Below are positions 1,267 through 4,419 of a DNA stretch of 64,000 bases, one piece after another; position 1 is the first letter of the stretch, and each line of letters begins with the position of its first letter. The position numbers and the translations under genes are program-made. Under the pieces are notes generated by a model. It was not told where the DNA came from. It did no database searches and saw only the letters and a list, made by a program, of their open reading frames with translations. The stretch comes from Propionibacteriales bacterium (GTDB lineage Bacteria; Actinomycetota; Actinomycetes; Propionibacteriales; Nocardioidaceae). The DNA lies in NCBI GenBank assembly GCA_026392455.1, contig JAPLCB010000008.1:186001-250000 (forward strand), read 5' to 3'.

Positions 1267-1563
1267 TCAGAGAGCGATCTCCAGCTCGGCGACGACGCCC
1301 TTGGCGGCCGTCACCACGTTGTCGACCGGCTCTGCCTGCGGGGCAAGCGTGCGCAGCGTCCACTCGCCGGGCCCGGCGAAGAAGCGGAAGTGCCCGGTAG
1401 CCGAGGTCGGGACCTCGGCGGTGAACTCACCGCTCTTGTCGAGCAGCCGGACGTAGGCGGTACCGACAGGCTCGCCACCCCTGGTCACCTGGCCCTGGAT
1501 GATCGCTTCCTTCGCCACGTCGATCCCGGCGAGGGAGAGCCCGCCGGCAGTCGCTCCGCACAT
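1267..1563 (-). CDS. DUF1416 protein (SseC-like, sulfur operon)
   Basis: 98 residues matching the DUF1416 family, called SseC in mycobacteria where it follows the rhodanese cysA2. The fold is probably a small beta-sandwich (GQVTRGGEPVGTAYVRLLD, then FRFFAGPGEWTLRTL). The N-terminus MCGATAGG carries a conserved-looking Cys and Gly-rich start. The ATG at 1563 overlaps the stop of the sulfurtransferase by one base (TGATG), so translation is coupled. The biochemical role is not known to me. Operon membership points to sulfane-sulfur metabolism. Confidence 0.88.
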   Translation of the reverse strand: MCGATAGGLSLAGIDVAKEAIIQGQVTRGGEPVGTAYVRLLDKSGEFTAEVPTSATGHFRFFAGPGEWTLRTLAPQAEPVDNVVTAAKGVVAELEIAL

Positions 1564-2411
1564 CAGGCTTCGCCCGGCTCGTCGCCCAGCGCGATCGGAA
1601 CACCGACGAGGGACCCGTACTCGGTCCAGGAGCCGTCGTAGTTCTTCACGTTCTGGTGGCCGAGCAGCTCCTTGAGGACGAACCAGGTGTGGCTCGAGCG
1701 CTCGCCGATCCGGCACAGCGCGATGGTGTCCTTGGAGTCGTCGAGACCGGCGGCGCCGTAGATCTCACGGAGCTCGTCGTCGCTGCGGAAGGTGCCGTCG
1801 TCGTTGGCAGCCTTGCTCCACGGGACGTTGATGGAGGTCGGGACGTGACCGGCACGCTGCGACTGCTCCTGCGGAAGGTGCGCCGGGGCCAGCAGACGAC
1901 CGGCGTACTCGTCGGGGCTGCGGACGTCGACCAGGTTGTGCACGCCGATCGCAGCGACAGCCTCGTCGCGGAAGGCCCGGATGCTGAGGTCCTGCTCGGT
2001 CGCCGTGTACGACGTGGGGTCGAGCTTGACGACCTCGTCACTCAGCTCGCGGGCGTCGAGCTCCCACTTCTTGCGGCCGCCGTCGAGCAGCTTGACGTCG
2101 GAGTGGCCGTACAGCTTGAAGTACCAGTACGCGTAGGCGGCGAACCAGTTGTTGTTGCCGCCGTACAGGACGACGGTGCTGTCGTTGCTGACGCCCTTCT
2201 CGGAGAGCAGGGCCTCGAACTGGGACTTGCTGACGAAGTCGCGGCGGACCTGGTCCTGCAGGTCGGTGGTCCAGTCGAGCTTGATCGCGCCACGGATGTG
2301 GCTGCGGTCGTAGGAGGTGGTGTCCTCGTCGACCTCGATCAGGACGACCTTCGGGTTGTCGAGGTTCTCGGCTACCCAGTCGGCGTTGACGAGTGCGGAT
2401 TCGCGGCTCAT
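1563..2411 (-). CDS. Thiosulfate/3-mercaptopyruvate sulfurtransferase (CysA2/SseA type)
   Basis: 282 residues, two rhodanese domains (about 10-135 and 150-275). The catalytic loop of the second domain is CRIGERSSHTW with the active Cys at residue 233. The first domain has lost the Cys, as is normal. Family members move sulfane sulfur from thiosulfate or mercaptopyruvate to a thiol acceptor or sulfur-carrier protein in the cytoplasm. It overlaps DUF4395 upstream by 4 bases and DUF1416 downstream by 1. Closest in look to the actinobacterial CysA2 group. The donor substrate cannot be read from sequence. Confidence 0.92.
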   Translation of the reverse strand: MSRESALVNADWVAENLDNPKVVLIEVDEDTTSYDRSHIRGAIKLDWTTDLQDQVRRDFVSKSQFEALLSEKGVSNDSTVVLYGGNNNWFAAYAYWYFKLYGHSDVKLLDGGRKKWELDARELSDEVVKLDPTSYTATEQDLSIRAFRDEAVAAIGVHNLVDVRSPDEYAGRLLAPAHLPQEQSQRAGHVPTSINVPWSKAANDDGTFRSDDELREIYGAAGLDDSKDTIALCRIGERSSHTWFVLKELLGHQNVKNYDGSWTEYGSLVGVPIALGDEPGEA

Positions 2412-2905
2412 GCGGTTACTTCTTCCTTGGTCGCTTCATTAATGGTGGAGTCGTGGGTGGTGCTGGTTCCCCGGTTTCGTACCCGTTGCCCGATCAGGTA
2501 CAGCTCACAGCCGAGGCAGAAGCCGAAGACCGAGTTGAGGAGGGCTGCTGCCAGCGCGAAGGCGGAGAAGACCAGCCCCAGGGTGTCCAGGCCGGTGGCG
2601 AAAGCGCTGAGCGCGACGACGGCAAAGACCAGTCCGACGGTCTGCGCGAACCGGGGCGGGCGGGCGTCCTCGGTGTGCGTCGGCGCGGCCAGCCGGGGGC
2701 GGACCAGCGTGCGGAACACGAACGAGGTCGGGGTGTGCTGCACGCCGCGCCCGGCACCGATCGCGAAGAACAGCGTCTGGATCGAGAGCAGCACCAGCGC
2801 CGTCGTGCTCGGTGCCGTCAGCAGCACCGCAGCGAAGACGAGCAGGGTGATGCCGGCAGTGAACCGCGGACCACGTGGGTCGATCTGCGGGGGGGTCGTG
2901 CTCAT
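2408..2905 (-). CDS. DUF4395 membrane protein
   Basis: 165 residues with three or four hydrophobic segments (about 14-45, 84-105, 108-130). A CLGC motif sits in FGFCLGCELYLIGQR, two cysteines at a membrane edge. This is the DUF4395 family, which in actinobacteria precedes the rhodanese. I infer a membrane partner for thiol or sulfane-sulfur exchange, because a membrane thioredoxin is its usual neighbour. First structural gene after the leader peptide at 3064-3129, and it overlaps the rhodanese start by 4 bases (ATGA). An AGGAG site lies a few bases before the ATG. Confidence 0.85.
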   Translation of the reverse strand: MSTTPPQIDPRGPRFTAGITLLVFAAVLLTAPSTTALVLLSIQTLFFAIGAGRGVQHTPTSFVFRTLVRPRLAAPTHTEDARPPRFAQTVGLVFAVVALSAFATGLDTLGLVFSAFALAAALLNSVFGFCLGCELYLIGQRVRNRGTSTTHDSTINEATKEEVTA

Positions 2906-3063
2906 GGGCCTGCTCCTGGGACGTGGTTTCGGGATCCTGGACGGGGAGTACGGGACGCCCGAGTGCCCACCCGCAGGGGTGTCGCACGGAGCTGGTCAGG
3001 CTCGGAGACCACAGGCTCTGCGAAGGCGCAGAGCGGAGTTCTCACACGAGCTGAGGCGTCCCG

Positions 3064-3129
3064 TCAGGACATTCGACACAGCGACGAGTGCACGCGGCAG
3101 TGGTCCACTGCGCGGCGCTTCGTCAGCAT
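3064..3129 (-). CDS. Cysteine-containing leader peptide upstream of sulfur operon (21 aa)
   Basis: A short minus-strand frame of 21 codons with the core RRAVDHCRV followed by SSLCR and ending RMS. This matches the actinobacterial putative leader peptide pattern RRAVDLCRV...CLCR that I know from upstream of cysteine and sulfur genes. In mycobacteria, polycysteine leader ORFs of this kind act as cysteine-responsive attenuators. It lies 158 bases before the DUF4395-rhodanese-DUF1416 operon. Between them is a perfect hairpin, CTCTGCG-CTTCGCAGAG (3016-3033 region), and a second GC-rich stem. Attenuation by ribosome stalling at Cys codons is inferred. Confidence 0.75.
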   Translation of the reverse strand: MLTKRRAVDHCRVHSSLCRMS

Positions 3130-3148
3130 GGTCGTAAACACAAGAGGA

Positions 3149-3154
3149 AGCCTA
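3149..3154 (-). promoter_or_regulatory. -10 box TAGGCT of leader peptide / sulfur operon
   Basis: TAGGCT on the minus strand predicts a start near 3142, about 13 bases before the leader peptide ATG. That would give a leader RNA of roughly 240 bases before DUF4395. No clear -35 element is visible. Confidence 0.4.
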
Positions 3155-3191
3155 GGCCGAAGATCCGAACCCTCGGTAACCGTCTGTCCAC

Positions 3192-3222
3192 ATAGCAAGA
3201 CGAATGTTCATATAGTAAGACG
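3192..3222. repeat. Short AT-rich direct repeat in intergenic gap
   Basis: ATAGCAAGACG (3192-3202) and ATAGTAAGACG (3212-3222) differ in one base and are 20 bp apart in a conspicuously AT-rich patch. The patch lies between the sulfur operon leader and the end of the glycan cassette. It could be a pair of binding sites for one regulator, or the scar of an insertion. Confidence 0.4.
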
Positions 3223-3228
3223 CCGCGG

Positions 3229-4419
3229 TCAGCGCCGGACCCGGACGAGGATCTCCTCGAACCGGTCCGCGCATCCTTCCAGGGCGAATTCACGCTCAGC
3301 CAGCGCGCGGGAGGCCTTCCCCAACCGGTTCAGCTCCTCGGGGTCGGCGAGCACCCTGCTGACCCAGGCTGCAGCCGCGGGCAGGGAGTCCTCGTTCGGG
3401 GGCAGCACGCAGCCCTCGACGTCCCCGACCAGCTGCGAGGCCAGGTTCTCGGCCGGCATGAACCCCAGCACCGGCCGTCCGGCACACAGGTAGGACAGCG
3501 TCTTGGACGGGACCGAGAACGCACCGGCGTCCTGCTCGAGCAGCACCACCAGGACGTCGCCGGACCCAAGGACCTCGGGCAACCGCTCGTACGGCTGGAA
3601 CGGCCTCAGCACCAGCGGTACGTTCAGCCGCGCCGCCTCGTCGCGCAGCACCTGCTCGGCCGGCCCGGTGTTGACCACCACGAGCTGCACCGGCGTACCG
3701 GCGTCCCGCACCGCGGCCGCGAGACCGACCAGGAGCGCCGGGTTGTGCTTGAGACCGAGCGTGCCCGAGTAGAGCAGGGTCTGGACCCCGTCGAGGTCGT
3801 GCTCGGCGGACCAGGCGTTGTGCCGCGGGACCGGGAAGATCTCGTCCAGCGGAGCCCAGTTCGGGATCACCGTCGTCTTCGCCGCGGTCCCCCACTCCCG
3901 GTGCACCGCGACGAACGAGTCGGCGATCACGACCACCGCGGCTGCCCGCCGGGAGATCCACCGTTCGGCGACGGTGAACAGTCCCGCCACCACCCGGAAG
4001 CCGCGACCCAGCTTCTCGCCGGCGAAGGCCTTGATGGCGACGGCGTAGACGTCCTGGTGCCAGAGCACCCAAGGCTTCCGCAGCAGCATCATCCCCAGTG
4101 CGAAGACGACCAAGGTGGGAATCTGGGCATTGGACAGCATCGCCACGTCCGCCCGGGTGCGCCGGACCTGACCGAGCAGCTCCAGCCCCAGCCGTGCCTC
4201 GACCACCAGGCGCTTGACGAACCGGTCCTTCTCGATCGGCTCGCTGGGACCGACCGGCTCGATCACCAGGCTGTCGCCGGCCTCGGACTCCAGCCGACCC
4301 TTCCCCGAGACCCAGGCCGGGCAGTAAGAGTGCGTGACCTGGTGACCCCGACGGGCCAGCTCACGACTCAGCTCGACCTGGAACGGGTGACCGGAGAAGT
4401 CGTGGACCAGGATCCGCAT
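3229..4419 (-). CDS. Glycosyltransferase family 4-like
   Basis: 396 residues from the ATG at 4419. A TTG 30 bases upstream would extend it into the preceding gene, but the sequence MRILVHDFSGHPFQ is the typical start. The N-terminal Rossmann half (HPFQVELSRELARRGHQVTH) and C-terminal GT-B half (TLLYSGTLGLKHNPALLVGL, then VPSKTLSYLCAGRPVLGF with its KTLSYL nucleotide-binding segment) are both complete. Retaining GT4 enzymes of this kind use GDP- or UDP-sugars at the membrane to build polysaccharides. A GDP-hexose donor is likely from the neighbours. It follows the epimerase with a 22-base gap. Confidence 0.85.
   Translation of the reverse strand: MRILVHDFSGHPFQVELSRELARRGHQVTHSYCPAWVSGKGRLESEAGDSLVIEPVGPSEPIEKDRFVKRLVVEARLGLELLGQVRRTRADVAMLSNAQIPTLVVFALGMMLLRKPWVLWHQDVYAVAIKAFAGEKLGRGFRVVAGLFTVAERWISRRAAAVVVIADSFVAVHREWGTAAKTTVIPNWAPLDEIFPVPRHNAWSAEHDLDGVQTLLYSGTLGLKHNPALLVGLAAAVRDAGTPVQLVVVNTGPAEQVLRDEAARLNVPLVLRPFQPYERLPEVLGSGDVLVVLLEQDAGAFSVPSKTLSYLCAGRPVLGFMPAENLASQLVGDVEGCVLPPNEDSLPAAAAWVSRVLADPEELNRLGKASRALAEREFALEGCADRFEEILVRVRR

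Follow-up and report, generated by a model that had tools for sequence, protein, structure and literature searches.

Mycobacterial leader peptides have reportedly been recognized as cysteine-responsive attenuators, a result ascribed to Canestrari et al. in 2020. The subject itself is older. In 2005, leaders carrying runs of Cys codons were described before the cys operons of Mycobacterium, and the available part of that paper calls the mode of regulation unknown, reports hairpins and terminators to be missing, and offers Rho as one possibility (PMC1262725). In 2015 came a Cys-rich small open reading frame (ORF) before cysA2, together with ribosomes on the orthologous M. smegmatis locus (PMC4633059). 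It is from these two papers, as far as their accessible sections go, that the proposal of mycobacterial leaders before cys/cysA2-type operons stems (PMC1262725, PMC4633059). Two NCBI family models now cover leaders of this kind, NF042933 (leader_Ms5788A) and the wider NF042934 (cis_reg_atten), while searches of the literature for Ms5788A, and for DUF4395 together with rhodanese, found nothing. The trp and ilv attenuators are also relevant here: as in the leader described below, the last part of their leader peptide contains codons for the amino acid under regulation, but our leader has two Cys codons only, and a consensus scan of its minus strand (2400-3400) finds no terminator-like site.

The locus occupies the minus strand of the window, by which we mean the whole 64,000-nucleotide stretch analyzed, and its host is a soil actinobacterium. 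An Rfam scan of the window at gathering scores returned four tRNAs and nothing else. Our preferred reading, which we consider somewhat better than evenly supported, is that a leaderless leader heads the transcript of DUF4395, rhodanese and DUF1416 genes as a cysteine-responsive translation attenuator. An earlier note on this DNA had proposed that a Cys leader controls the sulfur operon; this idea survives as the best reading, although parts of the anatomy (the start codon, the replaced residue and the supported stem) had to be redrawn. Codon positions are numbered from a conserved Val, so that V+10 is the Cys ten codons after it. The leader and operon are laid out as follows.

3149 to 3154, minus strand: -10 element TAGGCT, 7 nt before GTG 3141, a leaderless geometry read from the sequence and found family-wide
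3064 to 3141, minus strand: leader ORF with its probable GTG start, 25 codons, (M/V)FTTMLTKRRAVDHCRVHSSLCRMS, stop TGA at 3066-3064, placed by sequence, NF042933 score, promoter geometry and ortholog context
3097 to 3111, minus strand: possible in-leader hairpin GCAGTG-GAC-CACTGC, 93.5% of cells paired, with a GCA bias at the Ala codon
3097 to 3099, minus strand: first Cys codon (V+3), TGC
3076 to 3078, minus strand: second Cys codon (V+10), TGT, at which sensing and stalling are proposed
2913 to 2917, minus strand: Shine-Dalgarno AGGAG of DUF4395, read from the sequence
2408 to 2905, minus strand: DUF4395 gene, the operon's first, from ORF and domain match
1563 to 2411, minus strand: rhodanese-type sulfurtransferase gene, from ORF and domain match
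1267 to 1563, minus strand: DUF1416 gene, its probable start ATG 1563 placed from the domain span

Between DUF4395, rhodanese and DUF1416, each stop codon overlaps the next start (1563-2411, minus strand), an arrangement that suggests translational coupling.

The leader had been drawn in the earlier note as a 21-codon frame, and that frame is real: from ATG 3129 to TGA 3066-3064, the minus strand encodes MLTKRRAVDHCRVHSSLCRMS. Upstream of this ATG, the same frame stays open to GTG 3141, which is placed 7 nt downstream of TAGGCT (3154-3149), the -10 element that had also been pointed out correctly. An ATG or GTG with TANNNT 6 or 7 nt upstream is present in 79/83 operon leaders of the bacterial family (57 ATG and 22 GTG), vs. 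6 of 2490 shifted control positions at the same loci, which makes the leaderless 25-codon ORF from 3141 the better reading; the score against NF042933 likewise rises from 37.4 bits with the ATG start to 40.1 bits with the GTG start. The leader thus very probably starts at GTG 3141, is leaderless, and counts 25 codons rather than 21. As far as the sequence alone can tell, the window's promoter geometry is compatible with a leaderless transcript, as in the mycobacterial polycysteine attenuator. Downstream, the 158 nt to the DUF4395 ATG (2905) and the identities of the three genes agree with the earlier description.

How close is this leader to the described ones? It shares with the Ms5788A type its position before the same genes, its leaderless geometry, the KRRAVDxCR core and the UGU at V+10. 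It differs in having two single Cys codons where a polycysteine tract would stand (there is no run of contiguous Cys codons in the window's leader), in having His (His or Asn in most of its family) for Leu before the first Cys, and in scoring 40.1 bits vs. a curated cut-off of 45, a value reached in none of the 100 genomes of its family. With the cis_reg_atten leaders it has in common the VDxxR..S..C pattern and a V+10 Cys encoded by TGT, several of these leaders also preceding sulfur genes, but it scores 24.6 bits vs. a cut-off of 27, and 48 of the 55 anchored leaders of that kind lack the first Cys. The genomic context is nonetheless that of NF042933, with the leader directly before DUF4395, rhodanese and DUF1416, as for the matches that exceed the cut-off. 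In a profile search at E<=0.01, 83/100 genomes of the family match this model at 88 places in all, of which 83 have DUF4395, rhodanese or DUF1416 genes behind them (the five exceptions being L082, L086, L087, L094 and L095). The class yields matches at E<=0.001 in 169/246 genomes, 34 of them above the curated cut-off; the window's own genome holds a single match. Named loci were collected around the closest relatives of the rhodanese, the best matching coming from Nocardioides and other Nocardioidaceae, and a regular expression found an upstream leader at 78 of these 80 and none at L185 and L193. These counts go beyond chance. The leader cannot, as in the earlier note, be called unannotated, NCBI having a family model for its type. 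Its positional ortholog in mycobacteria is the Ms5788A-type cysteine leader, and it is a genuine, probably functional leader of known kind in a two-Cys variant below the curated cut-off.

The most constrained part of this leader is a codon. After removal of duplicate sequences (191 to 182), the V+10 Cys is TGT in 180/182 distinct leaders, and the V+3 Cys is TGC in 167/182. As a background, TGT accounts for 49 of the 502 Cys codons (9.8%) in the operon genes at these loci and for 7/120 in 34 long ORFs of the window. When leaders with masked Cys codons are clustered at 80% identity, 37/38 clusters are wholly TGT at V+10. The codon is retained whether the following one begins with CG, CC, CA or TG, and with or without an upstream CGAC. 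TGC takes its place in two leaders only, both from Nocardia (L196 and L207), where a run of three Cys residues has TGT at its first position. Two pairings were considered as the reason for UGU. That of CGAC (codons 3-4) with GUCG (UGU CGN) is not general, UGU occurring in 72 leaders without the upstream CGAC; that of GUGUCG with a downstream CGACAC exists in the window but, judged by eye and not counted, is not obviously shared by the relatives. A tRNA-Cys is found at one place in the window's genome, with anticodon GCA, among 44 tRNA matches, and UGU should therefore be decoded by a G-U wobble pair. Slow decoding, we infer, may be what fixes the codon; a wobble codon kept in 180/182 leaders looks like a synonymous choice held by regulatory need. 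In the literature examined on these leaders, as far as its available parts go and with Canestrari et al. (2020) outside the comparison, the invariant UGU is not mentioned.

The same rule extends beyond the operon. A second set of 60 regions was found with NF042934 and stands mostly before other genes, an operon protein being present in the stretch taken for 3/60 (L247, L264 and L280). Anchoring required a Cys at V+10 in any codon, and TGT was found in 54 of the 55 leaders anchored, L278 being the exception. Of the five regions left, L240-L242 were read later, all with TGT (giving 57/58), and L270 and L287 were not placed. In a separate set of 30, which overlaps the operon leaders, 27 read TGT and two more, placed later, did so too, L231 not being placed. 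A Pfam scan of 20 downstream proteins identified sulfite reductase types (L003 and L243), PAPS reductase (L238 and L239), a PLP-dependent (PALP) enzyme (L237) and a TauE/SafE-type sulfite exporter (L295), as well as solute-binding or transport proteins; the names of five (L261, L273, L283, L288 and L296) do not clearly point to sulfur, and no match was obtained at L246, L253 and L255. One of these wider-family leaders, L003 (G000:C2:172540-172590), belongs to the window's own genome; its V+10 is TGT, and it precedes a nitrite/sulfite reductase type gene (ORF at 1613-3049).

These neighbors count against the simplest explanation, namely an ordinary upstream ORF that senses nothing, its peptide merely loading ribosomes or coupling translation. 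A leaderless start and a conserved operon would be compatible with such an ORF, but it leaves unexplained the nearly invariant UGU and conserved peptide, as well as the related leaders before sulfite reductase, PAPS reductase, the PALP enzyme and the TauE/SafE exporter, and we hold it very improbable. At the other extreme, a single UGU at a fixed distance past the peptide core could serve as sensor throughout a large family of actinobacterial sulfur leaders, the polycysteine tracts being a mycobacterial add-on and UGU being fixed by G-U wobble with the only tRNA-Cys (GCA), slow decoding, perhaps a sulfur-containing tRNA modification, and some aid from the nascent peptide. This generalization is offered tentatively, with the odds against it. 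If it is true, the UGU leader would be a single-codon sulfur sensor. With leaders of further sulfur genes following the UGU rule as well, a single mechanism could be put to the test over much of sulfur assimilation in actinobacteria.

The peptide around the codon varies. Cys runs are seen at L100, L102-L107, L110, L111 and L127, which are presumably mycobacterial, and shorter ones at two Nocardia loci; three Cys residues are usual in Micromonospora and others (VDLCR..TCLCR), two in the family of the window (VD[HN]CR..S[SA]LCR). The residue before the first Cys is His in the window and mostly Leu in relatives outside the family, whereas the Ser or Ala of the family stands where many of those relatives carry Cys. 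Where Ser-Ser had been read as replacing further Cys, the comparison thus shows one Cys replaced by Ser or Ala, and the His that had been read as a replaced Cys turns out to replace Leu instead. All 83 leaders of the family carry L(-6), R(-3), V(0), D(+1), C(+3) and C(+10), with codons that vary except for the Cys at V+10. The last Ser codon is TCC in 33/35 family leaders, and the Ala(-1) codon is GCA in 59/80 and GCC in none, GCC being the commonest Ala codon in the window. Over all leaders, this Ala codon (3109-3111, minus strand) ends in A or G in 172/182 and is GCC in one, and the bias persists where the in-leader hairpin cannot form. For that hairpin (GCAGTG/CACTGC, Ala to Cys codons), no clear covariation beyond shuffles was seen despite the high share of paired cells.

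Such conservation recalls TnaC-type arrest peptides, in which conserved residues occupy about ten positions before the stall site. The likeness is that the window's leader is also conserved over some ten positions before its proposed stall site; the differences lie in sequence and codon. The peptide L-T-K/R-R-R-A-V-D...S-L, sitting in the exit tunnel, might then pause the ribosome at the single UGU in addition to any shortage of Cys-tRNA, cysteine status setting the length of the pause. That the peptide before UGU is conserved while its codons change freely is what such an arrest would predict, and the second set points the same way in keeping a VDL.R..S..C type pattern with a V+3 Cys in just 7/55 leaders; yet peptide conservation could also reflect overlapping RNA constraints, of which the GCA bias at Ala may be a sign. 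As a full explanation, arrest by the nascent peptide is possible but doubtful, whereas a contribution of an arrest peptide to the regulation is plausible from the sequence pattern.

How could a codon near the end of the leader act on a gene 158 nt away? The translation attenuator that we favor would use the following RNA elements.

3065 to 3069, minus strand: putative anti-Shine-Dalgarno TCCTG at the leader end, a complementarity enriched over 173 loci
3054 to 3064, minus strand: 5′ arm ACGGGACGCCT of the candidate stem P1, 0/30 shuffles being as good
2950 to 2960, minus strand: 3′ arm GGGCGTCCCGT of P1, pairing with 3064-3054 over 11 bp
3015 to 3034, minus strand: first hairpin, GCTCTGCG/CGCAGAGC, inside the P1 domain, read from the sequence and folded
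2963 to 2987, minus strand: second hairpin, GTGC..CACCC/GGGTG..GCAC, inside the P1 domain, read from the sequence and folded

The two hairpins had already been noticed, and both can form, but the stem that relatives support is P1 (3064-3054 with 2960-2950) instead. A stem starting around the leader stop, with its 3′ arm in the spacer, is within the top 3 of 30 shuffles in 30/68 loci (about 9 expected) and the best one of 30 in 18/68 (about 4 expected); 38/68 loci fall outside the best 3, and the arm sequences differ widely between loci. Complementarity in the P1 zone reaches p<=0.05 in 29/139 loci (7.0 expected), the coding-sequence control giving 8/173. When stems are counted from UGU over 165 loci, 35 are equalled by at most 1/25 shuffles (about 13 expected), and the first base of UGU precedes the start of the 5′ arm by 12-17 nt in 25 of these 35. 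Where the downstream genes start was estimated with tblastn and start codons, and the pairing, stem and folding tests cover loci whose spacer is neither long nor short and whose start was found.

Besides P1, complementarity between the leader end (UGU+3 to +19) and the first gene's Shine-Dalgarno window is in excess over shuffles, at p<=0.05 in 25/173 loci (8.7 expected) and at p<=0.01 in 12/173 (1.7 expected). The controls give 3 against coding sequence and 10/171 against positions -45 to -25, and two other leader segments give 9 and 2 against the Shine-Dalgarno window. The window's own match, TCCTG/CAGGA, is 5 bp long with a shuffle p of 0.26. When leader ends were swapped between species, pairing with the Shine-Dalgarno window was not weakened; a species-specific pairing was accordingly rejected, the complementarity is generic, and the anti-Shine-Dalgarno claim rests on the shuffle test. 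Judged apart from Canestrari et al. (2020), the parts that seem new are the fixed UGU and both of the enriched pairings. Together, the fixed UGU, the stop-region stem and the anti-Shine-Dalgarno complementarity are concrete, testable elements for a regulation that the available part of the 2005 paper called unknown (PMC1262725).

These parts fit together in a simple geometry: a ribosome at UGU would cover the end that can sequester the Shine-Dalgarno and leave P1 free to form just ahead, which is what suggests translation attenuation. Ribosomes would load at the 5′ GTG of the leader transcript. With ample Cys-tRNA, they would pass the UGU Cys codon, finish the leader and leave, and the end of the emptied leader around its stop (UCCUGA) could then pair with the operon's Shine-Dalgarno, lowering translation. 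When Cys-tRNA is short, a ribosome would stall at UGU with its footprint covering the leader end, and P1 could form ahead of it, keeping the leader off the Shine-Dalgarno and thereby allowing translation of the sulfur genes. In this model, we infer transcription, translation, stalling, the cysteine signal and its direction, the last three by analogy with the mycobacterial reports.

The main rival is Rho-dependent termination: once the leader has been finished, Rho would load on the C-rich spacer and stop RNA polymerase before DUF4395, and a ribosome stalled at the Cys codon would alter Rho access or the spacer structure (P1). A spacer made of 40% C and 30% G and the lack of any terminator-like site (minus strand, 2400-3400) would suit it, and Rho was already put forward for the mycobacterial leader in the accessible part of the 2005 paper (PMC1262725). 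A stall at UGU, on the other hand, leaves most of the spacer naked, so that Rho is not obviously blocked, and Rho control has no need of a complementarity between leader end and Shine-Dalgarno that exceeds shuffles. We regard it as unlikely.

Translation attenuation was further modeled by moving a 29-nt ribosome footprint along the leader at 167 loci. With the A site at UGU, the start region opens by a mean of -1.05 kcal/mol (85 loci more open and 24 less, by >0.5, n=167), and one codon past UGU by -1.13 kcal/mol (84 more open, 25 less), the change being near zero with the ribosome 5-6 codons before UGU. Rho control would not need an opening peak at UGU or the next codon. At UGU+4 codons, near the stop, the start region still opens by a mean of 0.64 kcal/mol, and the contrast between a stalled and a terminating ribosome is small (mean -0.58, p=0.012; 33 more open, 20 less, n=76). 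Shuffling the leader end or the spacer reduces the effect at UGU to -0.49 and -0.44, respectively, so about half remains, and real minus shuffled gives p=2e-4 for the leader end and 1.6e-3 for the spacer; these folding p values ignore the relatedness of the sequences and are hence optimistic. Taken separately, the family set (47 more open, 7 less, n=75) and the class set show a significant effect at UGU, and the named set does not (p=0.24), its p value one codon later being 0.013. For the window alone, the predicted opening cost falls from 8.50 in the free RNA to 7.26 with a ribosome at UGU when the ends of the scan are used, but a first accessibility test with other RNA ends gave 7.33 free and 9.06 with the ribosome, against the model; in such folding, the outcome for this single locus is dependent on the RNA ends chosen. 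For the family, the scan lends the mechanism moderate support.

A last feature lies 5′ of the leader promoter.

3186 to 3221, minus strand: two tandem operator-like repeats, GTCTTACTATATGAAC and GTCTTGCTATGTGGAC, 16-mers with a period of 20

A pattern derived from this site itself had 0 matches in 100 shuffles. In Streptomyces coelicolor, NdgR binds 5′ of the cysA, cysM and cysI units, at a 15-bp GTCCAC..GGAC-type palindrome, according to the available part of the report (PMC4340878), and the tandem repeats resemble this motif. Over 147 loci, GAGAC sites before the leader start cluster at 45-48 nt (42 sites) and at 64-68 nt (14 sites).
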